A stretch of 35,894 bases of DNA from Anaerolineaceae bacterium (GTDB lineage: Bacteria; Chloroflexota; Anaerolineae; Anaerolineales; Villigracilaceae). Below the pieces are notes generated by a model that was given only the letters and a program-made list of their open reading frames with translations, was not told the origin of the DNA and did not search any database. A program made the position numbers and the translations under genes. The stretch is from NCBI GenBank assembly GCA_009885945.1, contig VFJR01000056.1, positions 1 through 35,894 of the forward strand, in the 5' to 3' direction. Shown here one piece after another: positions 4,794-23,756 of the stretch. The first letter of the stretch is position 1. Every line of letters starts with the position of its first letter.

Positions 4794-5763
4794 AACGAAT
4801 TCGAGGATCGAGCCAGCCATAAATAACATCAGCAAGCAGGTTGAAGAGCAGAATGAGCGCGGCTTGGATCATGACCGAGGCGAGCAGAACGGGATAATCA
4901 CGCCCGCGTGCCGCATCCCAAAAAAGGCGACCCATGCCGGGCCACGAAAAAATTGTCTCAATAAAAACTGCGCCGCCAAAAACAGTCGGCAGATCTAGCG
5001 CCATCATGGTAACGAGCGGCAACAACGCATTACGAAGCGCATGTTTAAAATAAACCATGCGTGCAGATAATCCTTTTGCGCGCGCTGTGCGAATAAAATC
5101 TTCATTCAATATATCGCGCATAGATGAACGTAGAAAACGAGAATACCAAGCAACCCAGCCCACGCTGGTGGCAATCACTGGCAAAACCATGTGCCAGAGT
5201 AAATCCATCACATCATCTTCTTTGCCAATTGTATACATACTACCCGCAGGGAACATAGGACCATCGCCAAAGGGGTTTTGTAATTTAAGATAAAAGACAA
5301 GAATTAAGATTAACCCAAACCAATAGACAGGCACACTCTGACCTGCAAAACTTAAAGTAGTGATGATGTTATCAAACAACGAATATGGTTTAATGGCAGA
5401 ATACACCCCAACTGGTATTGCAATTAATAATGTAACCAAAAAGCTTACGCCAAAAAGCAAGAGTGTGGCGGGCAGTCTATCCCAGATCATTTCAGAGACC
5501 GGTTTGCGAAATTTGATGGAATAACCCCAATCGCCTTCGAGCACAAAGGCTTTCATCCATTTTATATATTGAATTGGCAAAGGTTGATCCAACCCTAATC
5601 GAACACGCATCAGCGAAAGTTGTTCTGGCGAAACATTCGGGTTTCGCTCAGCCTGCGCGAGAGGTCCGCCGGGCATAAGGCGAACCAACCCAAAAAGAAA
5701 CACGCTCAGCAGGAACATAATAGGAATAGATTGCAAAAGACGGCGGGCGATGTAGGTGAGCAT
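4786..5763 (-). CDS. peptide-type ABC transporter permease, DppB/OppB-like
   Basis: This is the first permease subunit (BPD_transp_1, DppB/OppB branch), 325 residues, the usual size. It starts with the typical MLTYIARRLLQSIPIMFLLS amphipathic and transmembrane segment, followed by a periplasmic loop with LGLDQPLPIQYIKWM, and shows the EAA loop RTARAKGLSARMVYFKHALRN and the late segment ETIFSWPGMGRLFWDA conserved in this branch. About six membrane helices are visible. The gene lies 38 bp downstream of an amidohydrolase gene, and that gap contains a palindromic heptamer repeat. I see no convincing ribosome-binding site ahead of the ATG. The gene overlaps the following permease by 8 nt. Confidence 0.92.
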   Translation of the reverse strand: MLTYIARRLLQSIPIMFLLSVFLFGLVRLMPGGPLAQAERNPNVSPEQLSLMRVRLGLDQPLPIQYIKWMKAFVLEGDWGYSIKFRKPVSEMIWDRLPATLLLFGVSFLVTLLIAIPVGVYSAIKPYSLFDNIITTLSFAGQSVPVYWFGLILILVFYLKLQNPFGDGPMFPAGSMYTIGKEDDVMDLLWHMVLPVIATSVGWVAWYSRFLRSSMRDILNEDFIRTARAKGLSARMVYFKHALRNALLPLVTMMALDLPTVFGGAVFIETIFSWPGMGRLFWDAARGRDYPVLLASVMIQAALILLFNLLADVIYGWLDPRIRYE

Positions 5764-5777
5764 AGTTTTGTTTTTTT

Positions 5778-5800
5778 ATTACGTATTACTTAATACGTAA
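5778..5800. repeat. heptamer tract forming a perfect palindrome in the operon gap
   Basis: Three 7-nt units ATTACGT, ATTACTT and AATACGT run from 5778 to 5798. The same bases form an inverted repeat with two perfect 10-nt arms (5779-5788 and 5791-5800) around a 2-nt centre. It fills most of the gap between the amidohydrolase stop (5802) and the permease start (5763). On the coding (minus) strand it is followed by an A-rich stretch, not a T-run, so it is not a standard terminator there; a processing or attenuation role is possible. Confidence 0.6.
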
Positions 5801-5801
5801 A

Positions 5802-7394
5802 TTATCTTTCCCAAACAACTTTTCCATTCACCATTGTCCATATTGGCTTTGCCTGCATAATATCTTGTGATTTTAATTCAAACAGATCATGCGAGAATAA
5901 AACCAAATCAGCTAGATATCCTTCTCTGACTTGTCCTTTTTGATTTTCCATAAACTCTGCATATGCAGCATCACGAGTATAGCCGATAACACATTCTTGC
6001 AGAGTTAATTTTTGGTTTGTACTTTCTGGAGATAATTTATCACGATTGAGCGCAACATAAATATGAGTCATTGGGTCAAAAGAAACCACGGTCCAATCAC
6101 TACCCATGCAAAGTTGCGCGCCTGCATTTTTCAGGTCACGCCACGCCTGCCAATATCGCCAGCGTTGTTCGCCGAGTCGCGCAGTGGCAACTCCGCCTTT
6201 GCTTAAATTCAACGGAGCATGGCTTAACTGGATAGAGGCAATCACGCCCAATTCTTTAAAGCGCGGCATATCTTCAGGCTGGCACACTTCCACATGTTCA
6301 ATGCGATGGCGGCTGTCTCGTTTTCCATTTAAGTTTTGAATTGCTGCATATCCATCTAATGTTTGCCTTACTGCACCATCACCACAGCAATGCACAGCTA
6401 TCTGCAAACCCAATTTATCACAAGCCGCTGCCATGCGCGTAAAATGCTCGAACGAAAATATCGGTTCCACTTTTACACTAGGTTCATCTGCATAAGGAAG
6501 AACATTGAAAGCCGTATACGATTCCCAAACGCCATCCATAAAAAATTTGACCGCTCCGCCGCGCACAAACTCGCCTTGAATTTGAGCCATCGTCAGGGCT
6601 TCTTCCAAATCTGATTCATTCGCTTCAGGCTTAACCTCAAACGGAACATACACCCGCACATTTAACTCGCCTGAATCTTCTGCGGCGGCGTATGTCATTA
6701 AATCCCGCATGTCGCCGTTCATATTATGAACACTAGTAATGCCTGCTTTATTGAATTCCTGTGATGCATGTTTAAGTTGTCTGCGAATAAATTGGGCACT
6801 TGGGGGCGGAATAATATCTAACACAGCCTTCATCCCATCTTCGCGCAATTCGCCTGTAGCCAATCCATTTTCGTCACGAATAACATTGCTGCCGCCACCC
6901 TCTTTCAAAATCCCCGCCAATTCGAGCGCTTTTGTATTTGCCCAGGCAGTATGCGCATCCGCAGTGCGCACATATACAGGGTGGTGGGCTATGATTTCGT
7001 CTAAATCCTGACGAGTAGAAATAACATCATAGCCGCTGCGCCAACCGATAATCCATTCATCAGCTTTGAGCGTGTCAGCGAAAATGCGCAATATTGTTTT
7101 ATATTCATCTTTAGTCTTTGCTTGGCTAAGCTCTGCATACCCCATCCACGTTGCGCCAGAAAGTAAATGGATGTGCGCATCAATAAACCCTGCAGTTAAA
7201 GTTCTTTGTGCGCCGTCAATGATTCTGGTTGTCTTGCCAATAAATTTTTCCACACCGACATCATCACCCACAAAAACAATGCGATCGCCTTTTACGGCAA
7301 CAGCATTAGCATATAGGTTATTTTCATCGCTCGTAAACACGCGCGCGTTTTTGATAACAAAATCCGCGTTTTTGTTTTTTATATCTTTATTCAT
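5802..7394 (-). CDS. amidohydrolase, Amidohydro_3 family (YtcJ-like), copy B
   Basis: This is a cytosolic metal-dependent amidohydrolase of the Amidohydro_3/YtcJ group, with 530 residues and no signal peptide. Visible motifs are the metal-binding HxH in TAGFIDAHIH (His74, His76), KFFMDGVWES in the middle, the barrel histidine in QIAVHCCGDGA, RHRIEHVEV, and the terminal metal aspartate in CMGSDWTVVSFDP. The N-terminal strand and the C-terminal ADLVLFSHDLF...VNGKVVW segment form the small beta-sandwich that flanks the barrel. The substrate is unknown; family members act on N-acyl or cyclic amides. It is a close paralogue of the gene just upstream and has the same length. Its position in front of the transporter genes suggests that it processes the imported ligand. 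The start at 7394 has only a weak ribosome-binding site but aligns with the paralogue's start. Confidence 0.88.
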   Translation of the reverse strand: MNKDIKNKNADFVIKNARVFTSDENNLYANAVAVKGDRIVFVGDDVGVEKFIGKTTRIIDGAQRTLTAGFIDAHIHLLSGATWMGYAELSQAKTKDEYKTILRIFADTLKADEWIIGWRSGYDVISTRQDLDEIIAHHPVYVRTADAHTAWANTKALELAGILKEGGGSNVIRDENGLATGELREDGMKAVLDIIPPPSAQFIRRQLKHASQEFNKAGITSVHNMNGDMRDLMTYAAAEDSGELNVRVYVPFEVKPEANESDLEEALTMAQIQGEFVRGGAVKFFMDGVWESYTAFNVLPYADEPSVKVEPIFSFEHFTRMAAACDKLGLQIAVHCCGDGAVRQTLDGYAAIQNLNGKRDSRHRIEHVEVCQPEDMPRFKELGVIASIQLSHAPLNLSKGGVATARLGEQRWRYWQAWRDLKNAGAQLCMGSDWTVVSFDPMTHIYVALNRDKLSPESTNQKLTLQECVIGYTRDAAYAEFMENQKGQVREGYLADLVLFSHDLFELKSQDIMQAKPIWTMVNGKVVWER

Positions 7395-7497
7395 CTTTGT
7401 TTACATCATCTAGAGAGCTTCCTGGCATCTTGGAAAAAAAGCTTGGCTTTCTCTGTGCCTTGACGGTGAAAAAAATGATTCCGCATAAGCTTAATCA

Positions 7498-9090
7498 CTA
7501 ACTTTCATGCACAATTCTGCCGTCAATCATCGTTACCATAGCTTTCACAGAGCGGATATTCTCAGCATTTACTGCAAACAGATCTTCCGAGAATAAAACC
7601 AAATCTGCCAGAAAACCTTCCTTCACCTGACCTTTTTCATTTTCCTTGAATTCAACGTACGCCGCATCGCGTGTATACCCAAGGATGCATTCCTCCATCG
7701 TCAAGCGCTGATCGGGATCACTTGGTGATAATTTCTTGCGATTAAGCGCCACATAGATATTGATCATCGGGTCAAAAGGCGCAACGGTCCAGTCACTGCC
7801 TAGGCAAAGATGCGCGCCTGCATTAATCAAATCTCGCCAAGCAAAAGAAAGGCGCCAGCGTTGCGCGCCTGTGCGTTTCGTCCAAACCATATCATCTTCC
7901 AAACTAAACGGAGCATGACTAGTTTGCATAGATGCGATTACTCCCAACTGTTTGAAGCGCGGCATATCATCAGGCTGACACACTTCAATATGCTCCACGC
8001 GATGACGACTATCGCGCGTACCATTGGTTTTTTGTATAGCCTCATAGCCATCCAAAGTTTGACGTACAGCCGCGTCACCACAAGCGTGAACAGCGATCTG
8101 CAGTCCCATTTTGTCGCAGAGGGTCGCCATGCGCGTAAAATGCTCTAGCGAGAAGATAGACTCCACTTTGGTATCAGGCTCGTCGGCGTAAGGATCGACG
8201 TTGAAGGCGGTGTAAGACTCCCAGACGCCATCCATAAAAAATTTTGCAACCCCGCCGCGTACATAATCCATCTGAACTTTTGCCATCTGCCCCGCTTCTT
8301 TCAAATTTTCTTCTGTTGCTTCAGGCTTGACATGATACGGCACATACACTCGCATATTCATTTCACCTGCGTCTTCCAGCGCGGCATACGCCATCAATTC
8401 TTCCATATCACCGTTCATATTGTGAACGCTGGTAATGCCTGTTTTATTAAATTCTTTAATGCCCAGCTTAAGTAATTCACGCTTTCGGTTTGCATCAGGA
8501 ATCGGCAAAAGGCTAAAAACAGCATCCATCCCATCGGCTTCACGAAGCTCCCCTGCCGCCAATCCTTTTTCATCGCGCACAATAATGCCATTGGTCATCT
8601 CTCTATGATCGTCCTGCAAAATACCTGCGAGTTCAAGCGCTTTGGTATTTGCCCAGGCAGTATGCCCGTCAAACGCGCCAATGTATATCGGACGGTCAGA
8701 GATAATTTCATCCAACTCTTGCCGAGTAGATACAATACCATAACGAATACCACGCCCTGCGATCCATGGTTGAGTTTTATTTTCGCTTGCAAAATCAAGC
8801 AGTACTTTTTTTAGATCATCTTTGGTTTGTACTTCACGCAATTCTGCGTTGCCCAGCCAAATAGAACCCCACAACAAATGCACATGTGTATCAATAAAGC
8901 CTGCTGTTAATGTATGCCCCATGGCGTCAATCAATTTGGTCCTCTTGCCCTGAAACTCCTGCACGCCTTCATTATTTCCCACATAAACAATCTTATTCCC
9001 GCGCACAGCTACAGCTTCAGCATATGGGTTATCTTGATCACTTGTAAACACCTTCGCATTGATAAAAACTACATCTGCACGAGTCGCCAC
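7498..9090 (-). CDS. amidohydrolase, Amidohydro_3 family (YtcJ-like), copy A
   Basis: This is the first gene of the minus-strand transporter unit and a paralogue of the next gene, also 530 residues. It has the same landmarks: TAGFIDTHVH (metal ligands His69, His71), AKFFMDGVWES, QIAVHACGDAA, RHRVEHIEVCQPDDM and CLGSDWTVAPFDP. No signal peptide is present, so hydrolysis would be cytosolic. The start is a GTG at 9090, decided by AGGAGA about 8 nt upstream and by the absence of an earlier good start. It is divergent from mutS across a 93-bp region. A 103-bp gap without a recognisable signal separates it from copy B. The two copies differ near the active site (for example ACGDAA against CCGDGA), so they may have different substrates. 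Confidence 0.9.
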   Translation of the reverse strand: MATRADVVFINAKVFTSDQDNPYAEAVAVRGNKIVYVGNNEGVQEFQGKRTKLIDAMGHTLTAGFIDTHVHLLWGSIWLGNAELREVQTKDDLKKVLLDFASENKTQPWIAGRGIRYGIVSTRQELDEIISDRPIYIGAFDGHTAWANTKALELAGILQDDHREMTNGIIVRDEKGLAAGELREADGMDAVFSLLPIPDANRKRELLKLGIKEFNKTGITSVHNMNGDMEELMAYAALEDAGEMNMRVYVPYHVKPEATEENLKEAGQMAKVQMDYVRGGVAKFFMDGVWESYTAFNVDPYADEPDTKVESIFSLEHFTRMATLCDKMGLQIAVHACGDAAVRQTLDGYEAIQKTNGTRDSRHRVEHIEVCQPDDMPRFKQLGVIASMQTSHAPFSLEDDMVWTKRTGAQRWRLSFAWRDLINAGAHLCLGSDWTVAPFDPMINIYVALNRKKLSPSDPDQRLTMEECILGYTRDAAYVEFKENEKGQVKEGFLADLVLFSEDLFAVNAENIRSVKAMVTMIDGRIVHES

Positions 9091-9127
9091 GGTAATTTCT
9101 CCTGTTTTTATTAACTTTCCCTTATAT

Positions 9128-9148
9128 TACCAAAGATTTTGGTATACT
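9128..9148 (+). promoter_or_regulatory. extended -10 of mutS overlapping a 17-bp inverted repeat
   Basis: TACCAAA (9128-9134) and TTTGGTA (9138-9144) form a perfect 7+3+7 inverted repeat. Its right arm overlaps TGGTATACT (9140-9148), which fits an extended -10 element (TGnTATAAT type) for mutS; no good -35 is visible. With transcription starting near 9155, the ATG at 9184 would have a leader of about 30 nt. The repeat sits in the divergent region and could serve as an operator for either direction. Both the promoter and the operator are inferences. Confidence 0.35.
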
Positions 9149-9183
9149 GGATTTTATATTTCCCAAAAAAAGAGTTCCCCAAA

Positions 9184-11730
9184 ATGACCAACGAAGATGC
9201 AACCCCTGTACGCCAGCAATATCTAAAGGTTAAACGCGAGCATCCCAATGCCATCGTTCTCTTTCGCCTCGGCGATTTTTATGAGACCTTCGACGAAGAC
9301 GCAGAGATCACCGCGCGCGAATTAGATATTGTGCTCACCTCCCGCCCCGTTGGCGGCGGTACGCGCGTACCTTTGGCAGGCATTCCCTATCATGCTCTTG
9401 AAAATTATTTATCGCGCCTCATTTCAAAAGGCTATCATGTTGCCATTTGCGAACAGATCGGCGAAGTGCCCGCCAAAGGTCTAGTAGAGCGCAAAGTAGT
9501 GCGTGTGGTCACACCGGGCACAGTAACAGAGCCAGGACTCTTGCCTGGGGATGCGAATAACTACCTCGCTGCGGTCTTTCTTAACGATGGGTCTGCTTCT
9601 GTTTCTTATACAGATGTCACCACTGGAGAATTCGCCGTCACCGAACTTCCGCTCGAATCCCTGCGCGCCGAATTAACCAGATTACACCCCGCCGAAATTA
9701 TCTACCCTGACAATCAAACCCTGCCCGATAACATCACAGGTCATCTAACCGCCCTGCCCTCCTGGAAATTTGAAGCGGGTAAATGTAATGAAACTTTACT
9801 TTCTCATTTTCAATCCTCCACACTAGATGGTTTTGGATTAAAACAAAACAGCCTAGCAATCAAAACTGCAGGCGCGATCATTCAATATCTAAAAGAAACC
9901 CAGCCAGATTCTCTAAACCTGCTCAAGTCATTGCGAAACTACAGTCTCAATGAATTTATGACTCTCGATGCATCCACACGCCGCAACCTTGAGCTCGATG
10001 AAACTTTACGCGGCGAAAGAAAAGGCTCTCTACTTGGCACGCTAGACACAACCATTACACCAATGGGAAAAAGACTCATTCATCAATGGGTTAGTCAGCC
10101 ATTATTGAGCGTAGAAAAAATTATTCAAAGGCAAATCGGTGTGCAATTTTTTCACGAGCACGGAATGCAACGCGCTGAATTACGTCAGGCGCTGAAACCA
10201 ATCGCAGATTTAGAACGGCTAATCAACCGTGTTATTAGTGGGCAGGCACAACCACGCGATCTAGTCGCAATGCGCAATACATTAACCGAGTTACCTATCG
10301 TTAAAGAAGTGATTAGTCGTCAGTTTTCAGTGGTCAGTGGTCAATGGTCTTTATGCGAAGATCAATTATCCTTACTGCAAAAAGCCATTGATGATGATCC
10401 ACCTGCTACATTACAAAACACTGGTGTAATTCGAACTGCCTACTCGCAAGAATTAGATTCAGTGATTGACGCCTCCAAACACGCTCGAGACTGGATCGCC
10501 AACCTCGAAGGAATCGAACGCGAGAAGACGGGCATTAAGACTCTCAAGGTTGGCTACAACAAAGTATTTGGCTATTACATAGAAATCTCACGCGGCGCGG
10601 CAGATAAAGCCCCCGAGACCTACATCCGCAAACAAACCTTGGTCAACGCCGAAAGATTCATTACACCTGAGATGAAGGAATACGAAACGCTGGTCTTGAA
10701 TGCCGAAGAACGCATCAAAGAAATTGAAACACGCTTGTTTCGTGAGGTGTGTGCAGAAGTGGCAAAAGCCGCCAATATCATCCTCTCGACCGCGCGCGCG
10801 CTGGCGGAATTAGATGTGCTCTCCTCCCTCGCTGAGGTAGCGGCTCTCGGAGGCTATGTCAAGCCCCAAGTCCACGAAGGAAGCGAATTGGAAATTGTGG
10901 ATGGGCGTCATCCAGTAGTCGAACAGTTATTGAAAGGCGATCGCTATATCCCCAACGATGTCCATTTTGAAAAAGGCGAAATTGTGCGCATCATCACGGG
11001 ACCGAATATGGCGGGTAAATCCACTTATCTGCGTCAAACGGCATTGATCGTTTTGATGGCGCAAATGGGATCTTATGTACCTGCCCATTCCGCAAAAGTT
11101 GGCTTAGTGGATCGCATTTTTACACGCATCGGCGCGCAAGATGAAATTCACGCGGGGCAATCCACATTTATGGTGGAGATGGTGGAAGCCGCGAATATTT
11201 TGCATCACGCTACTTCACGCAGTTTATTAATTTTGGATGAAATTGGGCGCGGAACATCCACCTACGATGGACTTTCAATAGCCTGGGGCATCATCGAATA
11301 TATTCATAATCATCCACAACTGCGCGCCAAAACTTTATTTGCTACGCATTATCATGAGTTAACTCAACTTGCAGATTTACTGCCCGGCGTGCGTAATTAC
11401 AATGTGGCAGTCAGTGAAGCCGACAATACAATTGTATTCCTGCACAAGATCGTCGCAGGCGGCGCAGACCGTTCCTATGGGATTCACGTAGCACAACTAG
11501 CGGGTATGCCTGCACCTGTTGTGCAACGCGCCAACGAGATTATGTCAGAATTGGAAAAGACATCGGGGCGCGCAGTGAAAATTGATCCACATGCCGCGCA
11601 GCAAGCAATGCTATTCCCAGAATCAAGTCCGTTGTTGCGCGAATTAAAAGATATGGACGTAAATTCATTATCGCCAATCGAAGCGTTGAATAAATTATTT
11701 GAATGGCAAAAGAAGTATGCCTCAAAATAA
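9184..11730 (+). CDS. mutS: DNA mismatch repair protein MutS
   Basis: MutS is the ATPase that recognises mismatches and small loops and recruits MutL. The protein has 848 residues from the ATG at 9184, a normal length. The mismatch-reading Phe-x-Glu motif is in RLGDFYETF (Phe32, Glu34). The lever and clamp domains follow (VISGQAQPRDLVAM; KVGYNKVFGYYIEIS), then the ATPase with Walker A GPNMAGKST (606-614) and Walker B LLILDEIGRGTST (Asp685, Glu686), and FATHYHEL as the H-loop. I prefer the ATG at 9184 over an in-frame TTG at 9139 because that TTG overlaps the -10 element and precedes no family-like sequence; no strong ribosome-binding site is visible for either. Residues 380-389 are encoded by a heptamer repeat tract. 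A membrane-protein gene follows without a terminator. Confidence 0.97.
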   Translation: MTNEDATPVRQQYLKVKREHPNAIVLFRLGDFYETFDEDAEITARELDIVLTSRPVGGGTRVPLAGIPYHALENYLSRLISKGYHVAICEQIGEVPAKGLVERKVVRVVTPGTVTEPGLLPGDANNYLAAVFLNDGSASVSYTDVTTGEFAVTELPLESLRAELTRLHPAEIIYPDNQTLPDNITGHLTALPSWKFEAGKCNETLLSHFQSSTLDGFGLKQNSLAIKTAGAIIQYLKETQPDSLNLLKSLRNYSLNEFMTLDASTRRNLELDETLRGERKGSLLGTLDTTITPMGKRLIHQWVSQPLLSVEKIIQRQIGVQFFHEHGMQRAELRQALKPIADLERLINRVISGQAQPRDLVAMRNTLTELPIVKEVISRQFSVVSGQWSLCEDQLSLLQKAIDDDPPATLQNTGVIRTAYSQELDSVIDASKHARDWIANLEGIEREKTGIKTLKVGYNKVFGYYIEISRGAADKAPETYIRKQTLVNAERFITPEMKEYETLVLNAEERIKEIETRLFREVCAEVAKAANIILSTARALAELDVLSSLAEVAALGGYVKPQVHEGSELEIVDGRHPVVEQLLKGDRYIPNDVHFEKGEIVRIITGPNMAGKSTYLRQTALIVLMAQMGSYVPAHSAKVGLVDRIFTRIGAQDEIHAGQSTFMVEMVEAANILHHATSRSLLILDEIGRGTSTYDGLSIAWGIIEYIHNHPQLRAKTLFATHYHELTQLADLLPGVRNYNVAVSEADNTIVFLHKIVAGGADRSYGIHVAQLAGMPAPVVQRANEIMSELEKTSGRAVKIDPHAAQQAMLFPESSPLLRELKDMDVNSLSPIEALNKLFEWQKKYASK
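10321..10348 (+). repeat. heptamer tandem repeat inside mutS
   Basis: Four consecutive 7-nt units, CAGTTTT, CAGTGGT, CAGTGGT and CAATGGT, lie in the coding sequence and give the residues QFSVVSGQWS (about 380-389) in the core region before the clamp. The unit type resembles short heptanucleotide repeats seen between genes in cyanobacteria and Chloroflexota. Here the tract stays in frame and seems to add a surface segment. The repeat itself is directly visible; its origin as an invading repeat is inferred. Confidence 0.7.
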
Positions 11731-11746
11731 AGGTATCAAAATTAGC

Positions 11747-13579
11747 ATGTCAAAATCAACCCTTTCTATCATTAGCGAATCAATAAAAACCATATTTAAT
11801 AAACCATTTTTTTTTATCTTTCTTAACCTTTTCATCATAAATCTTGCTGTGATCGGAGTAATGAACTTACGCTACCCGTTAATTGGACATGATTTCACCT
11901 ACGCCTTGCCAAGCCTGCTTGATAATGCTATTCACTTCCGTCAAAACGGCTTCAGCATTCAATGGTTTACACCAACGTTTGGCGGGGGAATTCCATCCTT
12001 CGCAAACCCAAACAACATACAGTTCTCCTTACCTGCATTGTTGATCTTAATCATGCCACCATGGTCTGCAATAATCACTTATACAATTATTTACATTACC
12101 ATTGGCTTTTTGGCATGCTATTATTTTTTATACAAAACCCTGAATATGCACTGGACATCTAGTGTTTTAGGGGCGTTATTTTTTAGCATAAACGGCTTTT
12201 GCATTTCAAGAATCACGCCAGGGGAAGTTCCATTTTTGTCACTGGCTCTTTTTGGGTTATATTTAATTCCGTTATTTGACAAAAAAATGCCGAACATAAT
12301 TAGCATCCCTATGCTCGGATCAATGATTGGAATATTCATTTACTCAGCCGCGTATTACATATTGGTGATCTTTGCTATTTCCATCTTAATCACAGCCGCG
12401 CTAATTTACCTTTTATTTCCGATGGTGATTGAATGGAAAAAAACGATTCAAACGGCTGTTTTGGGCGGGGCGCTCGGATTGGTCATTTCTCTTTCAAAAT
12501 TAGCAGCTATAGGGGCGTTTATGCGCCAGTTTCCGCGCCTAGCAGCAGATGAACTGCCGACAACTTTTCTTAATGGTTCTTTAGCATTGGTTCTGGAAAT
12601 TCTTGGGGTCATGAGCATGGTTCCTATTTACATCCTCGGCGGACTAGACCCACATACCTTTCCCACGCTTACACGCCAGTTTAGCAACAGTCATTATGGG
12701 CTTTGGGAACTTGACTCATCTCTGACACCCGTTGTATTTGCCATCTTATTGATCCAATTGATAGATATCGTCAAATACAGAACCTATTTACGCAAGACAA
12801 CTACTTCACAAAAAATTGGCATTCTGTGTTTTTTATTTTTCACATGGGTTGGCGTTGAATTTGTGACTGCACAGGGATTTATATATCCAAATATCCGTCA
12901 TTTGCCAATTCTTAGTTCGCTGCGGGCAAATATGCGTTTTGCAGGAATTTTTATTTTTCCGCTGGCATTCCTTTCCGCAAGTATCTACAACCGCTGGCGC
13001 AAACAATGGAACAAAAGAAAACAGATTAATACCTTTATATTTGTAAACCTGCTGGCTTTGCTTCCTCTTGGTTTTTATTTTTCGTTCAAAGAAGATATGT
13101 ACTGGCAATTCTATGATATTGCCGGGGCAAATAAAATTTACACAGAAATAAATAATGGAAAATCTTTTGAAGTCACATCAATAGGGGTGGTTGACGGGAA
13201 AAACACCGGGGCTATGCTTTATCGCACAAGCAATCTAAATGTCTATGAACCTATCTTCGGTTTTAAGTTAGAAAATTTCCATCATCGTTTAGTAAGCGGG
13301 TCAATATGGCAAAAGACAGATGGGTATTACAATATGACCAATCCAATGGGATTCTTATATCCTACTGGAAACAACTACAAGGCATTTGATAGATTCGAGC
13401 TGAAAGACAAGGAAAAAATGGGGTTATTTGCAAAACATATCCAGCCTGAATGGGAAATTCCGCTATATCAAAAGGCAATTAACTATATTTCTGCATTTGC
13501 AACGATAGGCGCGATCACATCTTTGTTGTTTGGTTCAATATTTTTTTCACTCCGTCGCGCAAACAGGAACAAGATTTAA
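11747..13579 (+). CDS. polytopic membrane protein, possible GT-C / YfhO-like glycosyltransferase
   Basis: This is a large integral membrane protein (about 610 residues) with roughly a dozen hydrophobic segments. After the first helix comes a loop with YPLIGHDFTYALPSLLDNA and then SIQWFTPTFGGGIPSFANP. An acidic, aromatic first external loop of this kind is typical of GT-C glycosyltransferases and YfhO-type proteins, which take sugars from polyprenyl-phosphate carriers. The last third (after about 440) has a soluble extracellular-like part and a final helix. The neighbour two genes on encodes a DPM1/CsbB-like enzyme that would make such a carrier-linked sugar, which supports the call. The start is uncertain: ATG at 11747, ATG at 11717 (14-nt overlap with mutS) or TTG at 11699; none has a strong ribosome-binding site. 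Composition is clearly AT-richer than mutS. The family assignment is tentative. Confidence 0.7.
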   Translation: MSKSTLSIISESIKTIFNKPFFFIFLNLFIINLAVIGVMNLRYPLIGHDFTYALPSLLDNAIHFRQNGFSIQWFTPTFGGGIPSFANPNNIQFSLPALLILIMPPWSAIITYTIIYITIGFLACYYFLYKTLNMHWTSSVLGALFFSINGFCISRITPGEVPFLSLALFGLYLIPLFDKKMPNIISIPMLGSMIGIFIYSAAYYILVIFAISILITAALIYLLFPMVIEWKKTIQTAVLGGALGLVISLSKLAAIGAFMRQFPRLAADELPTTFLNGSLALVLEILGVMSMVPIYILGGLDPHTFPTLTRQFSNSHYGLWELDSSLTPVVFAILLIQLIDIVKYRTYLRKTTTSQKIGILCFLFFTWVGVEFVTAQGFIYPNIRHLPILSSLRANMRFAGIFIFPLAFLSASIYNRWRKQWNKRKQINTFIFVNLLALLPLGFYFSFKEDMYWQFYDIAGANKIYTEINNGKSFEVTSIGVVDGKNTGAMLYRTSNLNVYEPIFGFKLENFHHRLVSGSIWQKTDGYYNMTNPMGFLYPTGNNYKAFDRFELKDKEKMGLFAKHIQPEWEIPLYQKAINYISAFATIGAITSLLFGSIFFSLRRANRNKI

Positions 13580-13580
13580 C

Positions 13581-14384
13581 ATGGAACAACGAAGAGACAT
13601 ATCCGCTCAACAGGCAAGGAAGATGATTATTGAATTTTCAAGACGGGCTAACATTGGCCACATCGGCTCCGCTCTTTCTGTTGTTGATATCCTTACAGCC
13701 ATTTACTCAAATGTTATTAATATTGACAATCTGACTTCAAACGAAAGAGACCGCTTTGTCCTGTCAAATGGACATACATCTCTGGCGCTATATATAGTTC
13801 TCAATCTGGCAGGAATTCTGCCAGACAGCGAGTTACAAACATTCTTTGAAGACGGGAGCTATCTCGGGGTGCATCCGGATGCGAATATCACTGGCGTAGA
13901 TTTTACAAGTGGCTCATTGGGTCAAGGATTATCATTTGGGGCAGGTGCGGCGCTAGCGGCAAAATTACAAAGCTCAGGCAGACGCGTTTTCGTCGTCATG
14001 AGCGACGCAGAGTGTAACGAAGGATCAGTATGGGAGGCGGTGATGTTTGCCGCACACAGGCGATTGAGCAATCTTATAGCCATTGTTGATTTAAATGGAC
14101 AGCAAGCTATGGGTTATACAAAGGATGTTTTAAACCTGCAACCAATTGCTGAAAAATGGAAAGCCTTTCACTGGGACACACATTCAATCAATGGCAACGA
14201 TATTTCTAAAATCTCAAATACATTGAACTCTTTAAACACAACCAGCGCACAACCTCATGTAATCATTGCAAACACAACATTTGGAAAAGGGGTTTCTTTT
14301 ATGGAAAATAAACTCAAATGGCATTATATGCCTTTATCTGCAGAAGAGTACGTTCAAGCCTTGAGTGAAATAGAGCAACAATGA
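13581..14384 (+). CDS. transketolase, N-terminal (TPP-binding) subunit
   Basis: This is the first half of a two-gene transketolase, 267 residues, carrying the pyrophosphate-binding domain. Landmarks are the glycine-rich FVLSNGHTSLALYIVL, SGSLGQGLSFGAGAALAAKL, and the TPP/Mg motif starting at SDAECNEGSVWEA and ending in DLNGQQAMG. Transketolases move two-carbon ketol units between sugar phosphates. The ATG at 13581 follows the previous stop by one base and has AGGA a short distance upstream; a longer in-frame start at 13530 would overlap the upstream gene. It overlaps its partner subunit by 4 nt (ATGA). A complete single-chain transketolase is encoded at 21780-23756, so this pair is unlikely to be the housekeeping enzyme. 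Its place in a glycan cluster suggests a role in making an unusual sugar. Confidence 0.9.
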   Translation: MEQRRDISAQQARKMIIEFSRRANIGHIGSALSVVDILTAIYSNVINIDNLTSNERDRFVLSNGHTSLALYIVLNLAGILPDSELQTFFEDGSYLGVHPDANITGVDFTSGSLGQGLSFGAGAALAAKLQSSGRRVFVVMSDAECNEGSVWEAVMFAAHRRLSNLIAIVDLNGQQAMGYTKDVLNLQPIAEKWKAFHWDTHSINGNDISKISNTLNSLNTTSAQPHVIIANTTFGKGVSFMENKLKWHYMPLSAEEYVQALSEIEQQ

Positions 14385-15310
14385 GGAAAACTTTTGTAAA
14401 CGCACTAATAGACCTTGCAACAAATGATGAAAGAATCGTTTTACTAACAGGCGATCTTGGGTTTATGGTAATGGAGCCTTTTATAGAGCGTTTTCCTAAC
14501 AGATTCGTCAATGTTGGTGTTGCAGAACAAAACATGGTCGGCGTAGCAACTGGCATGGCAGAATCAGGAATGATTCCTTACGTTTATTCAATTACACCAT
14601 TCGCGGTTCTACGTCCATATGAATTCATCCGTAACGGGCCTATATATCATCAATTAAAAGTTCGCATTATTGGAGTTGGCGCAGGGCTTGAATATGGACA
14701 TGATGGAATTTCACATTTTGGAATTGATGACATAGGTGTTTTAAGGGTACAGCCCGGGATTTCTATATTCGCACCTGCAGATTACCAACAGGCAGATTCT
14801 ATTTTCCGAAAAACATGGGATATGCGCGGTCCAATTTATTATCGTTTAAGTAAGGATGAGAAATCAGTCGTACCCAATTTATCCGCAGCCTTTGAAATTG
14901 GAGAAGCCCAATTTATCGAAAATGGCAACGACATCTTGATCGTTACACTAGGAACTATTGCATTAGAAGCGGCTAAAGCTATTGAATTACTGAAAATTAG
15001 CGGTGTACATGCGTCATTACTAATGATCTCATCCATCAACCCGCCACCCTTAGCTTCTCTTTCACAAATCCTGCCAAAATTCAAAAAAATCATTACTGCA
15101 GAATCTCACTATATTAATGGCGGCATTGGGTCAATGATTGCAGAGTTTATCGCGGAAAAAAGCCTACACTGCACCTTAATTCGTTGCGGCATTGACCATA
15201 TACCAAATGGTCAAATTGGGCACACAGAATATCTACTGCAAACATTTGGGATTGACGAAAAAAGCATTGCGGCAAAAGCGCTCTCTGTGCTACAAGGAAA
15301 AAACATATAA
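14381..15310 (+). CDS. transketolase, C-terminal subunit
   Basis: This is the partner of the preceding gene (309 residues), with the pyrimidine-binding domain and the C-terminal domain. It starts MRKTFVNALIDLATNDERIVLLTGDLG; the catalytic glutamate of TPP enzymes lies in NVGVAEQNMVGVATGMA, followed by PYVYSITPFAVLRPYEFIRN and, near the end, ITAESHYINGGIGSMIAE, typical of transketolase C domains. The start overlaps the first subunit (ATGA at 14381), implying coupled translation and a heteromeric enzyme. The stop TAA shares one base with the ATG of the following glycosyltransferase gene. Split transketolases also occur as primary-metabolism enzymes in archaea and some thermophilic bacteria, so the special role rests on context and on the presence of the second, full-length enzyme. 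Confidence 0.9.
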   Translation: MRKTFVNALIDLATNDERIVLLTGDLGFMVMEPFIERFPNRFVNVGVAEQNMVGVATGMAESGMIPYVYSITPFAVLRPYEFIRNGPIYHQLKVRIIGVGAGLEYGHDGISHFGIDDIGVLRVQPGISIFAPADYQQADSIFRKTWDMRGPIYYRLSKDEKSVVPNLSAAFEIGEAQFIENGNDILIVTLGTIALEAAKAIELLKISGVHASLLMISSINPPPLASLSQILPKFKKIITAESHYINGGIGSMIAEFIAEKSLHCTLIRCGIDHIPNGQIGHTEYLLQTFGIDEKSIAAKALSVLQGKNI

Positions 15311-16290
15311 TGAGGGATAACAGCCAAAAAAAAACAATAAGCGCCATTATAGCAATTTACAGGGACGGACCTGCTATTCCTCACATGTACTCGCGTTTGA
15401 AAACAGTTTTTAAGAAAATCAAGGTGAATTATGAGATCATCTTTGTAAACGACTGTAGTCCAGATAACGCGCGCGAAGTATTGGAGGAAATTGCTCAAAA
15501 GGATAAACAGGTTGTAGTCATTAATCATTCGCGAAATTTCGGCTCTCAAAACGCATTTACCAGCGGCGCAAAAATTGCGAGCGGAGATGCTATTGTATTT
15601 CTTGATGGGGATCTTCAAGATCCGCCTGAACTAATCGAGCAGCTTTACAAAAAATGGGTAGAAGGATTCGATGTCGTCTATGGCGTTCGAGTAAAACGCG
15701 AAGCTTCAATATTCATGCGAATTGCCTATAAACTTTTTTATCGCATTTTCCGATCTATGTCTTACGTCAACATTCCGCTTGACGCAGGGGATTTTTCATT
15801 GATTGACCGCCGTGTAATCAATGTTCTCAATAATCTTCCAGAAAATAATCGCTTCATCCGCGGGTTGCGGGCTTGGGCAGGCTTTAAACAAACCGGGGTT
15901 CCTTATGTTCGCCCCGAAAGAATGTTTGGTCAGACCACCAACAATTTATTGAAAAATATTGATTGGGCTAAAAAAGCCATCTTTTCATTTTCTTATGTTC
16001 CGCTGGATGTAATTAGCTGGCTGGCTATTGCAACAGTTGCTGGCGCTACACTAATGTCTCTCTTCCAGTTTTTCTTGCGAATTTTCTTCCCCAGCATGAG
16101 CCCCTCCGGGTTTTCAACCCTGATCATATTGATATTATTCATGGGCGGAGTTCAATTGATATGCCTTGCCATTATAGGTTCATATCTAACTCACATATAT
16201 GATGAAGTCAAGCGCAGACCCCCTTATATTGTAGAAAGCATTATCAACCATCCTGAAACAAAAAAGTCAGCATCCAACAGAGACAAATGA
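15310..16290 (+). CDS. family 2 glycosyltransferase, DPM1/CsbB/GtrB-like, with C-terminal membrane helices
   Basis: This enzyme is predicted to move a sugar from a nucleotide donor to polyprenyl phosphate at the inner face of the membrane. The GT2 core spans about residues 10-230: ISAIIAIYRDG, YEIIFVNDCSPDNA, NHSRNFGSQNAFTSG and the metal-binding FLDGDLQDPPELI. The segment DAGDFSLIDRRVI and RGLRAWAGFKQ are typical of the DPM1/GtrB/ArnC group. Two hydrophobic helices follow (about 235-265 and 275-300) and a short basic tail, giving the usual 326-residue length. The gene overlaps both neighbours (1 nt before, 4 nt after). In Bacillus subtilis, CsbB of this type works with the multi-span YfhO; the membrane protein at 11747-13579 could be the matching partner. 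Which sugar is transferred cannot be told. Confidence 0.92.
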   Translation: MRDNSQKKTISAIIAIYRDGPAIPHMYSRLKTVFKKIKVNYEIIFVNDCSPDNAREVLEEIAQKDKQVVVINHSRNFGSQNAFTSGAKIASGDAIVFLDGDLQDPPELIEQLYKKWVEGFDVVYGVRVKREASIFMRIAYKLFYRIFRSMSYVNIPLDAGDFSLIDRRVINVLNNLPENNRFIRGLRAWAGFKQTGVPYVRPERMFGQTTNNLLKNIDWAKKAIFSFSYVPLDVISWLAIATVAGATLMSLFQFFLRIFFPSMSPSGFSTLIILILFMGGVQLICLAIIGSYLTHIYDEVKRRPPYIVESIINHPETKKSASNRDK

Positions 16291-17213
16291 ACCCGCAATT
16301 CACCCTACATGAAACTATCTGTGCAATTTGTGGATCCAAAGAAAATAGCACAGAATTATACAAAGCGAATGTCACGCCAAACGACTTTACACCAGAAATA
16401 TTCTCCGCGCGTAGATTACCCGATAAAATCCACTATCGTATCGTTCGCTGCAACAACTGCGGACTGGTGCGTTCTGACCCAACCATTCATTCAAATATTT
16501 TAACAACCTTATATGCCAAAAGCATTCAAAATTATGATCTTGAAGTAAAAAACCTGACTGACACTTATTTCAAATACGTTCAGGAAGCAATTAAGATTTT
16601 GGGAATTAAATCCATTCCTAAGGCTGGATTTCTAGAAATTGGATGTGGAAGCGGATTCCTTTTAGAAAAGGCTATAGAATATGGTTTTGGTCTAGTGCTA
16701 GGTATTGAGCCTAGCGTTGAGGCGGTTAACAAAAGTTCAGCGCATATCCGCCCCGCGATTATTTGCGATATGCTTCAACCCGGCATGTTACAAAAGGAAA
16801 ATTTCGATTTAATTTGCATGTTCCAAGTTTTTGATCACATTGCAAACCCAAATGCTCTATTAAGTGAATGTGTAAAAGCGCTCAAGCCTGGCGGAGGATT
16901 GTTAATTTTCAATCATGATGTAAGAGCTCTTTCAGCTCTGGTTTTGGGCGAAAATAGCCCAATCTTTGACGTTGAGCATACATACCTATACAACCAAAAT
17001 ACTATCGGGAAAATAGCTCAAAAACACGGGCTGAAAATTAAAATAATTTCTTCAGCAACAAATCGCATTTCGCTTCGACATTTAACCCACTTGCTCCCCA
17101 TAAAACAAAGTATAAAACTATATTTATTAAACAAACTAAAAAATACTGTGTTTGGTAATTTCGTGATTTCGCTAAAACTGGGCAATCTGTTTATAATTGC
17201 ACAAAAGCCTTAA
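16287..17213 (+). CDS. class I SAM-dependent methyltransferase with N-terminal zinc-binding motif
   Basis: This is a 308-residue methyltransferase. The N-terminus has two cysteine pairs, CAICG (about residues 11-14) and CNNCG (about 57-60), the pattern of a small zinc-binding domain found ahead of many sugar and natural-product methyltransferases. The SAM-binding Rossmann fold follows with GFLEIGCGSGFLLEKA (motif I), GIEPSVEAV, and FDLICMFQVFDHIANP, then LKPGGGLLIFNHD. It is shorter than sugar C-methyltransferases of the TylC3 kind (around 400 residues) and lacks their extra C-terminal domain, so O- or N-methylation is equally possible. It overlaps the glycosyltransferase gene by 4 nt, so both are translated together; a glycan precursor or the lipid-linked sugar is the most likely target. 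Confidence 0.9.
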   Translation: MNPQFTLHETICAICGSKENSTELYKANVTPNDFTPEIFSARRLPDKIHYRIVRCNNCGLVRSDPTIHSNILTTLYAKSIQNYDLEVKNLTDTYFKYVQEAIKILGIKSIPKAGFLEIGCGSGFLLEKAIEYGFGLVLGIEPSVEAVNKSSAHIRPAIICDMLQPGMLQKENFDLICMFQVFDHIANPNALLSECVKALKPGGGLLIFNHDVRALSALVLGENSPIFDVEHTYLYNQNTIGKIAQKHGLKIKIISSATNRISLRHLTHLLPIKQSIKLYLLNKLKNTVFGNFVISLKLGNLFIIAQKP

Positions 17214-17235
17214 ATAATTTTTGGGACATCCACAC

Positions 17236-18195
17236 ATGAAGCGAGTCTTACTAACAGGAGCAACCGGGTTTATAGGCGCAAATTTAACGCGGCGCTTATT
17301 ATTAGAAGGTCATGAAGTACATTTACTCTTGAGGAAAGAGCACAAACCTTGGCGTATTGTGCCAATAATCAACGACGTACATAAATGGACAATTGATCTG
17401 AGTGACAAAGAAGCTCTTCTCAATAATATTTCAACCATCAAACCAGATTGGGTCTTTCATCTCGCGGTATATGGTGCATATTCGTCACAAGCAGATTTCC
17501 GTCAAATGGCAGAAACAAATCTGATGGCGACTGCCAGCCTGGTAGATGTATGTAATCAAGTTGGGTTTGAAGCATTAATCAACACAGGCTCATCTTCTGA
17601 ATATGGATATAAAGATTATGCCCCTAGTGAAGATGAATGGATTGAGCCCAATAGCCCTTATGCAATATTAAAAGCCGCAAGCACACACTATTGCAGATAT
17701 ATCGCGCAAACCCATAAAAGCAATATGGCAACATTAAGGCTGTATTCTGTATTTGGTCCATACGAAGAACCTTCACGTCTCATCCCAACCCTTATTGTTG
17801 AAGGCCTACAGGGCAAACTGCCGCATCTCGTCAACCCTAACATTGCCCGTGATTATGTTTACATTGATGATGTATGCGAAGCCTATGTCAAAGCCGCATC
17901 TAAACCAGACCTAGCGGGCGCAGTGTATAACATTGGCTCAGGGAAACAACTGTCGTTACAGCAAGTTGTTGATGAAACTATTTCAACGTTAAGTATTAAA
18001 ACAACACCTGTTTGGGGCAGTATGCCAGATCGAAAATGGGACACATCTAAATGGGTTGCTAATATAAACCGCGCAAACGACGAATTGAAATGGCAGCCAC
18101 GGGTTTCTTTTTCAAAAGGACTTAAGATGTTTACGAAATGGATGACACCTGAAAGATTTTCTTTTTACAAAAATAACCGACAAAACCTTACATAA
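17236..18195 (+). CDS. NAD(P)-dependent sugar epimerase/dehydratase (extended SDR)
   Basis: This is an extended short-chain dehydrogenase/reductase of the nucleotide-sugar epimerase/dehydratase type, 319 residues from the ATG at 17236. The Rossmann motif is TGATGFIG near the N-terminus; the active site shows a serine-rich TGSSSEYGY and the YxxxK pair in SPYAILKAA; RDYVYIDDV and AVYNIGSG are further family landmarks, and the tail has the usual WQPRVSFSKGLKMF. An in-frame TTG at 17221 would add five residues; I chose the ATG because the fold begins directly after it. It is the last gene of the glycan set, 22 bp after the methyltransferase. The exact reaction (epimerisation, dehydration or 4-keto reduction) cannot be told from sequence alone. 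No terminator hairpin is obvious in the 35 bp before the convergent gene. Confidence 0.9.
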   Translation: MKRVLLTGATGFIGANLTRRLLLEGHEVHLLLRKEHKPWRIVPIINDVHKWTIDLSDKEALLNNISTIKPDWVFHLAVYGAYSSQADFRQMAETNLMATASLVDVCNQVGFEALINTGSSSEYGYKDYAPSEDEWIEPNSPYAILKAASTHYCRYIAQTHKSNMATLRLYSVFGPYEEPSRLIPTLIVEGLQGKLPHLVNPNIARDYVYIDDVCEAYVKAASKPDLAGAVYNIGSGKQLSLQQVVDETISTLSIKTTPVWGSMPDRKWDTSKWVANINRANDELKWQPRVSFSKGLKMFTKWMTPERFSFYKNNRQNLT

Positions 18196-21324: not shown

Positions 21325-21783
21325 TTACGATTTTTCTTCCATTACTTTAATTTTATTTACGCGGCGCGCCAATCTTTCTTCACCGCTATCATTCCCCAAA
21401 TAGCGTGCATTTAAAAATGCAGGCACCAACACTTTCACAAGTTCTGGTCCAATCACGCGCCCGCCCATACACAATACATTCATAGCATCATGCATTACGC
21501 CTTGCGCCGCAGAGTATGTATCATGGCAGATAGATGCATAAACACCTTTCATTTTATTTGCCGCAATTGCCGCACCAACACCAGAGCCGCAAATCAAAAT
21601 ACCGCGTTCCACTTCGCCGCTCTGGATTTTCTCGCCAACTTTTTTTGTAAAATCCGGAAAGTCCACTGCCTCGGCATTATTTGTGCCCACATCAATCACT
21701 TCATGACCAGCGGCAATTACAGATTCAATGACAGTATCTTTCAACGGGAAACCCGCGTGATCACAACCAACTGCTATTTTCAT
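21325..21783 (-). CDS. rpiB: ribose 5-phosphate isomerase B
   Basis: RpiB interconverts ribose 5-phosphate and ribulose 5-phosphate. The 152-residue protein shows the family signature [10 protein letters not shown] at the N-terminus, the active-site cysteine (Cys65) in [27 protein letters not shown], and a histidine at 98, all matching the RpiB/LacAB fold; Cys65 and His98 align with Cys66 and His99 of E. coli RpiB. It is the second gene of the pentose phosphate operon and overlaps the transketolase stop by 4 nt (ATGA), so the two are translated together. A LacA/LacB activity is unlikely because the neighbours are pentose phosphate enzymes. Confidence 0.95.
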
Positions 21784-23756
21784 AATTCTTTTGCCTTTGC
21801 GACTACATTTTCAACTGTAAACCCAAGTTTTTCAAAGATTATTTTATATGGAGCGGATGCACCATAGCGATCAATACCAATGACGGACTTGGCGTATCTT
21901 TCCCAGCCCAAGCTTGCTCCTGCTTCGACAGCGAGTCTCTTCTGAATATTTTTCGGCAAAACAGACTCGCGATAGGCTTCATCTTGTTTCTCGAACAATT
22001 CCCAACTCGGAAAAGAAACGACGCGCACGCCTTTACCTTCATCTGCTAGTTTTTGCGCGGCATCCATAACAAGACATACTTCTGAGCCAGAGGCTATTAA
22101 AATAATTTCAGGAGCTCCAAAATCCTTCAAGACGTAAGCCCCTTTTTCTACATTTGAGGTGGCTGGTGTGCGTTCAAATATAGGTAGGTTTTGGCGTGTT
22201 AATACCAACACAGTAGGTCCATCTCTGCGTGAAATTGCAACACGCCAGGCTTCAGTAGTTTCATTAGCATCTGCTGGACGCAGAACAACTAAATTTGGAA
22301 TTAATCTCAACGACATTAATTGCTCAACAGGTTGGTGCGTTGGCCCATCTTCACCAAGCCCAACACTATCATGCGTAAAAACAAAAATAGAAGGGTAATG
22401 TGAAATTGCCGCGAGACGAATCGAAGCACGCATGTAATCTGCAAAGACAAGGAACGTACCGCCATAAGGAATTACCCCGCCGAAAATTGCCATTCCATTT
22501 AACACCGCGCCCATTGCATGTTCCCGTACACCAAAGTGGAAATTTCGACCGGCGTACGAATTTTTTTGGAATGAAGGGCTGCCATCAATTTTAGTGTTAT
22601 TAGACGGTGCTAAATCCGCTGAACCGCCAATCAACTCTGGCAGCTTAACAGCAAGTGCATTAATTGCTTTTCCAGAAGCGGCGCGGGTAGCCATACCCTT
22701 CGAATCTGCTGGGAAAGTTGGCAAAGCACTCGCCCACCCTTCTGGCAGTTTATCGGAAAGGCGTCTCTCCAATTCAGAGCCATAAGCTGGATGTAATCTC
22801 TTGTACGCATCAAAACGCATTTTCCAATCAATTTCAAGTTCACGCCCACTCACAACTGCTTTCCGATAAAACTCCAAAACATCATCAGGAATAAAAAAGC
22901 GCGGCTCTTTTCTCCACTCAAGATTATCCTTTGCGGCGTTGAGCTCTTCGTCACCTAGAGGTTCCCCGTGCGCCTTAGAGGTACCTTGTCTATTCGGCGC
23001 ACCAAATCCAATAATGGTGCGGCAAAGGATTAACGATGGTCTAGGGTCAGCTTTAGCAGCTTCAATGGCTTTATCTATTGCATCAACATCATTCCCGTCT
23101 TCCACAGTCAGTACATGCCAGCCATATGCATTAAATCGTGCCGCGCGGTCTTCTGTGAAGGCAAGGTCTGTTGAACCGTCAATAGATATATGATTATCAT
23201 CATATAGGTAAATCAACCGCCCTAAGGATAAATGTCCTGCCAAAGAAGAAGCTTCAGAAGCAATGCCTTCCATCAAATCGCCATCTGTAACAATCGCATA
23301 AATATACGAATCTATTATTTCATGTCCACGCTGATTAAAGTTTGCCGCTAGATGCACGCTAGCAATCGCCATACCCACCCCGCTGGAAAATCCTTGACCT
23401 AAAGGTCCTGTGGTTACTTCCACACCAGGCGTTAATCCATATTCAGGGTGCCCAGGTGTAATGCTTCCCCATTGTCGAAAATTTTTCAACTCATCAAGAG
23501 GCAAATCATATCCTGTCAGATGCAGCAAAGAATACAAGAGCATTGAACCATGCCCGCCGGAGAGAATGAAGCGGTCACGACCTGCCCATTTTGGATTGCG
23601 CGGGTTATGCCGTAAATGTTTCGTCCAAATTGTAAATGCCATCGCCGCCGCGCCCATCGGCAAGCCGGGGTGACCACAATTCGCTTGCTGCACGCCATCG
23701 GCAGAAAGAAAACGAATTGTATTAATTGCGCGTGTTTGCAAATTTTGAGTAGACAT
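21780..23756 (-). CDS. tkt: transketolase (single-chain)
   Basis: This is a complete transketolase, 658 residues, moving ketol groups between pentose, erythrose, hexose and sedoheptulose phosphates. Landmarks are [10 protein letters not shown] (28-37), [10 protein letters not shown] (66-75), [14 protein letters not shown], the TPP/Mg motif around [11 protein letters not shown] (159-169), the catalytic Glu412 in [13 protein letters not shown], and [20 protein letters not shown]. It begins the minus-strand operon with rpiB, the transaldolase/isomerase fusion and phhB, so it is the likely housekeeping enzyme. No clear ribosome-binding site precedes the ATG. Only 27 bp separate it from the DUF429 gene upstream, so that gene may share its promoter. 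Confidence 0.96.

Follow-up and report, generated by a model that had tools for sequence, protein, structure and literature searches.

A split transketolase with a short-chain dehydrogenase/reductase partner forms a conserved cassette in bacterial glycan loci and may make two-carbon-branched nucleotide sugars

Contig VFJR01000056.1 of an Anaerolineaceae bacterium (Chloroflexota; GenBank assembly GCA_009885945.1) contains six closely spaced genes on the + strand at positions 11747-18195, here called A to F, two of which (B and C) encode the subunits of a split transketolase. The whole stretch of 35,894 nucleotides that we analysed is referred to as the window. The observation was confirmed, and the genes turned out to form a conserved cassette that is not peculiar to this genome. 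B and C are an accessory transketolase whose canonical phosphate-site histidine is replaced by glycine, and they are accompanied in related genomes by one short-chain dehydrogenase/reductase (SDR), the product of F. We favour, with modest confidence, the reading that B and C move a two-carbon (C2) unit to a nucleotide-linked keto sugar; this reading is based on the gene context and the changed substrate pocket, not on chemistry. The genes concerned are as follows.

A, 11747-13579, + strand: polytopic membrane protein, 610 amino acid residues, with 11 hydrophobic segments; without a family; candidate exporter-side transferase by position only.
B, 13581-14384, + strand: N-terminal, thiamine diphosphate (ThDP) pyrophosphate-binding subunit of the split transketolase, 267 residues (Transketolase_N, PF00456, E = 4.3e-41).
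C, 14381-15310, + strand: Pyr plus C-terminal subunit of the split transketolase, 309 residues (Transket_pyr, PF02779, 1.4e-24; Transketolase_C, PF02780, 1.7e-14).
D, 15310-16290, + strand: family 2 glycosyltransferase (GT2) of the PgfS/ArnC type, 326 residues (Glycos_transf_2, 1e-29), with two C-terminal hydrophobic segments.
E, 16287-17213, + strand: S-adenosylmethionine-dependent methyltransferase, 308 residues (Methyltransf_23, PF13489, 4e-16); two CxxC pairs occur close to its N-terminal end.
F, 17236-18195, + strand: extended SDR of the nucleotide-sugar kind, 319 residues (Epimerase, PF01370, 3.2e-47), with Ser-Tyr-Lys and an SSSEYG motif.
Control outside the cluster, 21780-23756, - strand: full-length canonical transketolase (TIGR00232).

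Neighbouring genes overlap by 4 bases (B/C and D/E) or 1 base (C/D), or are separated by one base (A/B) or 22 bases (E/F). The gene positions, overlaps and domain matches agree with a preliminary description of the window, made from the sequence alone, which had listed six packed genes including the split transketolase. The arrangement is more than chance, because the same arrangement recurs in other genomes.

All three transketolase domains were found in B and C, each above its gathering score, which places the pair in the ThDP-dependent transketolase superfamily. Among the listed Pfam matches, both proteins hit only the transketolase families with their DXS, E1 and PFOR relatives, and neither showed the decarboxylase-class ThDP type to which YerE belongs. 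The closest solved structures both come from the Carboxydothermus hydrogenoformans split transketolase: its N-terminal component (6yak) for B, at 5e-60, and its other chain (6yaj) for C, at 1.4e-53. The separate full-length transketolase that the preliminary description placed at 21780-23756 scored 921.8 bits with TIGR00232 (cut-off, 682.25) and is thus confirmed. Encoded on the strand opposite to the cluster, it adjoins rpiB and a gene for a transaldolase/phosphoglucose isomerase. In the 3.43-Mb assembly (95.7% complete), Transketolase_N was matched only by B and by this full-length protein. We also counted Transketolase_N matches, irrespective of their length, in 46 of the 50 genomes with a close relative of C (G833-G836 were left out; numbers with G denote genomes, and those with L denote loci). 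At least two matches were present in 42 of the 46 genomes and one in the other 4, so the pair is not the sole transketolase in most relatives. B and C are, as had been proposed, an accessory and not a housekeeping transketolase. As a separate observation, in L096 (2386-7895) a single N-subunit gene is accompanied by two distinct genes for the C subunit, whose identities to C of the window are 49% and 46%.

The active site of C differs from that of a canonical transketolase. To assign residue positions we aligned C with the full-length transketolase of the window; in the numbering of E. coli transketolase, the canonical phosphate-site residues are Ser385, His461 and Arg520. In this alignment, C has Met29, Gly100 and Lys158 at the three places and therefore none of the canonical residues; it retains Arg358 and, at E49, H112 and D108, the equivalents of the catalytic and substrate residues Glu411, His473 and Asp469. 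We then compared 94 non-redundant rows including the window, with six duplicate and eight control rows excluded. Position 461 was Gly in all 94 rows, all of which also had Glu411 and His473. Position 520 was Lys in 79 rows, Arg in 13 and Tyr in 2; position 358 was Arg in 86, Lys in 1 and a gap in 7; and Asp469 was present in only 2. The compared Ser, His, Glu, Asp and Arg are all present in the full-length transketolase of the window; His, Glu, Asp and Arg are present in the split one of L063, and 6yaj retains the phosphate-site His in the printed alignment. The relatives had been picked with the peptide patterns LT[GA]DLGFM and N[VMA]GVAEQN. Because of these patterns the Ser385 column is biased by selection, and His461, Asp469 and Arg520 lie outside them. 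An altered substrate pocket, which favours the preliminary interpretation, was thus found throughout the set. As judged from the alignment, the changed residues show that the canonical phosphate site is gone, not what has replaced it.

Homologues of C are patchily distributed. At the preset limit of E <= 1e-55, 14 of the 400 genomes taken from the phylum had one, as did 6 of the 396 taken from the class. F was detected at E <= 1e-60 in 8 of the 400 phylum genomes, with five SDR candidates scored per genome, and precisely these eight (G000, G165, G227, G251, G345, G359, G396 and G424) also gave the best C matches, at a C limit of E <= 1e-75 that was chosen after the F result was known. The distance from F to C was at most about 3.1 kb in all eight. 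The chance of two sets of eight coinciding would be 6.6e-17 if the genomes were independent, which they are not. The eight genomes span several families, and at these limits their nearest kin that are without one gene are also without the other. F is therefore an obligate-looking partner of B and C.

The same association was observed in named genomes, for which we took one genome per species and studied the best 80 of at least 565 C relatives. These 80 included records of Ignavibacteriae, Cyanobacteria (Spirulina), Omnitrophota, Acidobacteria, Actinomycetota, Riflebacteria, Elusimicrobia, Verrucomicrobia, Nitrospirae and Chloroflexi. In the 47 loci in which C shares 43% identity or more with that of the window, F was present in 32, D in 23, E in 15, a short GT2 in 13, a sulfotransferase in 15 and a DUF4915 protein in 16; in the 33 loci with C below 43%, F was found in 4 and D in 1. 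The module counts are lower bounds, because several loci end at contig ends. D and the short GT2 occurred together in none of the 47 close loci, and neither did E or D together with the sulfotransferase. The order B-C-D-E-F of the window recurs in L093, without an extra gene, and slightly expanded in L081, L082 and L088; L093 (recorded as Brevefilum fermentans) is a contig of G424. The gene order is thus conserved, as the preliminary description required.

In a tree of C obtained by a quick search, the close loci formed one clade of 59 rows (SH-aLRT 100, a Shimodaira-Hasegawa-like approximate likelihood ratio, which was the only measure of support), and the two module types were intermixed within it. 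Four loci (L047, L050, L051 and L055) are labelled 'Fonly' in this tree because the sulfotransferase query did not cover them, though a sulfotransferase gene is present by reading. B and C belong to a clade of split transketolases spread over many phyla. Because the module types are mutually exclusive yet intermixed in the C clade, we infer that B, C and F are a common core feeding alternative loading modules, which explains the pattern best. In the first form, that of the window, the core is accompanied by D and often by E. The second form of the cassette consists of the split transketolase, a short GT2, a DUF4915 protein, a sulfotransferase and F; it is seen in L055 (8794-14395) and further in L074, L077, L083, L106 and others. 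The sulfotransferase in this form suggests a sulfated glycan. Apart from the cassette, distant split transketolases (L130-L134, L139, L140, L143 and L150-L152) adjoin DegT-type genes with the aminotransferase Lys motif and not RfbH.

The partner F was modelled with a mean predicted local distance difference test score (pLDDT) of 90.1. It has an extended SDR fold and the Ser-Tyr-Lys set, as expected for a nucleotide-sugar SDR. Its fold matches were tied among epimerases, dTDP-glucose (deoxythymidine diphosphate-glucose) dehydratases and GDP-mannose (guanosine diphosphate-mannose) dehydratases, with Z from 34 to 37. It stayed under the curated scores for 4,6-dehydratases acting on dTDP-glucose (111.9 of 365.1 bits), CDP-glucose (cytidine diphosphate-glucose; 64.1 of 278.45 bits) and GDP-mannose (37.8 of 415 bits). 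Arg32, which follows the second strand, is conserved in at least 90% of ten relatives; an Arg at this place in SDRs fits nicotinamide adenine dinucleotide phosphate, NADP(H). F is most likely a reductase or an epimerase. The preliminary description had called it an SDR epimerase; the SDR part is supported by the fold and the Ser-Tyr-Lys set, and an epimerase rather than a reductase is not.

D matched the profiles of PgfS (NF047588, 1.8e-69) and ArnC (NF007986, 1.2e-45) over its full length, and its two C-terminal hydrophobic segments are a further likeness to these proteins; its scores lie far under the curated cut-offs, with 234.3 of 500 bits for PgfS and 155.9 of 529 bits for ArnC. With such low scores, the sugar specificity of D may differ from that of PgfS or ArnC. 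The profile matches agree with the relationship to polyprenyl-phosphate glycosyltransferases that had been noticed before, and D is probably such an enzyme. In E, the domains PF08421 and PF08484 of zinc-binding sugar C-methyltransferases were absent at E <= 1e-3, so E is not an enzyme of that type.

In the case of A, the 11 hydrophobic segments come from a simple hydropathy count, and neither Pfam nor NCBIfam gave a match at E <= 1e-3. The YfhO family (PF09586) was matched neither by A at E <= 1e-3 nor by its relative in G424 at E <= 0.01, and the fold model of A had a mean pLDDT of 34.8. The proposal that A is a YfhO-like or GT-C protein is thus unsupported. A is nearly an orphan: one relative was found, 46% identical and beside the same cluster in G424, and none was found in a sample of 231 genomes beyond the window itself. 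A profile comparison of A with the YfhO-like neighbour of L090, which itself reached 19.4 of 28.5 bits with PF09586, gave a probability of 1%. Elsewhere in the window, two adjacent Amidohydro_3 genes (5802-7394 and 7498-9090) lie next to an oligopeptide-type ATP-binding cassette transporter.

The neighbours of the cassette in relatives point to 4-keto sugars. In G424, which is from the same family as the window's genome, all six genes adjoin rfbF, an rfbG-like gene and rfbH, the genes of the route that leads to the substrate of YerE. The products of rfbF and rfbH score over the cut-offs of TIGR02623 and NF011936, respectively, and that of the rfbG-like gene reaches 227.1 of 278.45 bits with TIGR02622. 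In L119, a Bacteroidetes record, consecutive genes at 3921-9924 encode RfbF, a CDP-glucose 4,6-dehydratase (both over their cut-offs), a C-methyltransferase with PF08421 and PF08484, an SDR, B and C. L125 (3778-9927) has, by similarity, the same order, and the product of these two rows is perhaps a doubly branched sugar. In L108, rfbF lies beside B-C-D-F, and in L127 rfbH, an SDR, B and C are consecutive. RfbH, for which four candidates were scored per genome, was present in 5 of the 14 phylum genomes that have C at the preset limit of E <= 1e-55 versus 20 of the other 386 (p = 0.0009, uncorrected for kinship). Among the eight closest genomes it was found in G424 and G251 only, and the copy in G251 is on another contig.

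Viral contigs carry a reduced form of the pair. We studied 40 IMG/VR loci (L153-L192) with a C relative; these represent few independent cases, because many are near relatives. The C subunit is at most 200 residues long in 37 of the 40 loci, and an N-subunit gene is present in 36. The reduced pair measures about 202 plus 159 residues, as in L192 (5272-8483) and L161 (6080-8480), in both of which Pfam found Transketolase_N and Transket_pyr and no Transketolase_C. Position 461 is Gly in the 38 of 40 loci that could be read with the pattern used. An RfbH relative occurs in 23 of the 40 loci, and in 20 of these its gene directly precedes the reduced N-subunit gene and overlaps it by 4 bases. The RfbH-like protein of L192 passes the RfbH model (436.8 bits; cut-off, 423), and an F-like SDR, 29% identical to F (6e-27), lies in between. 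Of 18 viral RfbH relatives with one further motif, 13 have the iron-sulfur cysteine pattern and 5 do not.

Several known systems can be compared with the cassette. YerF is the reductase partner of YerE. Like the present pair, YerE is a ThDP enzyme encoded in a polysaccharide cluster with an SDR or reductase partner; unlike it, YerE is of the decarboxylase class, whereas B and C are of the transketolase type, and the unit they transfer would be hydroxyacetyl instead of acetyl. The substrate of YerE is a CDP-linked 3,6-dideoxy-4-keto sugar on the way to yersiniose A, according to a 2025 review (PMC12247030). In that review, split-gene transketolases are put forward, though unproven, as the enzymes that branch keto sugars during miharamycin and amipurimycin biosynthesis, and 13 more, all from Streptomyces, are reported as found in silico by Krug et al., none of these enzymes having been characterised in vitro (PMC12247030). 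As described there, the miharamycin/amipurimycin type resembles the present pair in its split N and C genes, its oxidoreductase partner and the proposed two-carbon transfer to a keto sugar; the two differ in that the former belongs to Streptomyces antibiotic clusters, whereas B and C occur in glycan clusters of many phyla with polyprenyl-type GT2s. The C. hydrogenoformans split transketolase has the same two-chain build, and it keeps the phosphate-site His where C of the window has Gly.

Another split pair, AMIS_56710/56720, is annotated in the exopolysaccharide cluster wps-2 of Actinoplanes missouriensis, the deletion of which gave normal sporangia according to the report (PMC13390465). By the description given there, this pair is likewise in an exopolysaccharide cluster with a methyltransferase and a GT2, and it differs in having DegT aminotransferases alongside (PMC13390465), a neighbourhood that resembles the distant split transketolases such as L130-L134. 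A cassette of B, C and F was not found described in the open-access literature, the coverage of which does not extend to subscription papers.

We therefore consider the following pathway. B and C would act as one ThDP enzyme, and the two-carbon ketol unit that it transfers would be added to the carbonyl group of a nucleotide-linked keto sugar instead of to a sugar phosphate. F would make that keto sugar or would reduce or epimerise the product of B and C, so that the three together would yield a C2-branched (or extended) nucleotide sugar. D would hand the branched sugar to polyprenyl phosphate, E may methylate it, and A may place it outside the membrane. The genome of the window contains what we take, from their motifs, to be RmlB- and RmlA-like genes on contig 89 and a GDP-mannose 4,6-dehydratase-like gene on contig 185. 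With 4,6-dehydratase genes of the dTDP and GDP types in the genome, a dTDP- or GDP-linked 4-keto sugar is a plausible acceptor here. The preliminary description had already put genes A to F into a joint pathway, and it is partly supported: the accessory pair, the conserved order, the type of D and the changed pocket speak for it, and the identity given to A and F as an epimerase are unsupported.

Several observations weigh against this pathway. RfbF, RfbG and RfbH were not found in the window's genome above the limits used. RfbF was present in only 16 of the 51 genomes tested and not in that of the window; no one acceptor would therefore suit all of them, and the exact substrate of YerE is not general for the clade. 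The analogy with YerE in the preliminary description accordingly holds in part: the rfbF-rfbG-rfbH route adjoins the genes in G424 and RfbH occurs in viral loci, and the route was not found in the window's genome. Within the 47 close loci, RfbF was found in 3 and RfbG in 2, and with these counts we rejected the CDP-glucose route as a general source of the acceptor. F was missing from 15 of the 47 close loci, some of which were long enough to have shown it, and its reaction is not fixed, because its fold matches tie. The control ThDP proteins L007-L011 and L064 likewise have no His461, so that phosphate may still be bound through other residues, and Asp469, which is lost from most of the clade, is still present in C of the window.

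The retained Asp469 would suit an ordinary transketolase that acts on sugar phosphates and feeds precursors (pentose, heptose or tetrose phosphates) to the glycan cluster, its changed pocket only tuning affinity. The retained catalytic residues and Arg358, the latter in most rows, are consistent with such a role, as are the pentose phosphate genes next door and a cluster on contig 162 of the same genome (L198), which reads like a set for GDP-heptose synthesis and ends with a transaldolase-like gene. However, His461 is lost from every row, a canonical transketolase is also present, the linkage is with one SDR and polyprenyl-type GT2s and not with kinases or isomerases, and the viral forms are paired with RfbH. 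We thus regard an ordinary transketolase as unlikely.

A different course of events would be that F first oxidises a sugar to an aldehyde or ketone and B and C then extend its chain, or that they build a free ketose that is activated later. The constant proximity of an NAD(P)-type extended SDR to B and C in the eight phylum genomes is compatible with this, and the proposed miharamycin/amipurimycin scheme likewise puts an oxidoreductase before a split-gene transketolase (PMC12247030). However, RfbH and the CDP route in relatives give a 4-keto group ready for branching, and later activation is unlikely because A to F contain no nucleotidyltransferase; we consider chain extension rather improbable. 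That the six genes are mere neighbours brought together by horizontal shuffling in a variable glycan locus, with no single pathway, would accord with the patchy distribution of C, the variability of such loci and the single relative of A, but it is very improbable given the recurrence of B-C-D-E-F across genomes and phyla and the complete coincidence of F with the best C matches.

Branching of a nucleotide keto sugar by B and C is thus the reading we retain. We put forward a wider version more tentatively, as possible and still short of probable: the split transketolase and SDR cassette would make C2-branched nucleotide sugars for glycans of the cell surface in many phyla, passing them to a polyprenyl-phosphate GT2 in some cases and to a sulfotransferase/DUF4915 module in others; viruses would carry a stripped-down form coupled to their own RfbH. 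The natural addition of two carbons by transketolases to the ketones of activated sugars is called unproven in the 2025 review (PMC12247030). If the wider version is true, it would give transketolase-type enzymes their first physiological role on ketone acceptors. The set of candidates widens from the 13 Streptomyces cases to glycan loci in which an SDR partner is conserved and the active site carries a diagnostic change, and because these gene sets are small and stable and have both features, the question of ketone acceptors becomes directly testable. One would further expect as yet unrecognised branched sugars at the cell surface of uncultured bacteria and in certain interactions between viruses and their hosts.

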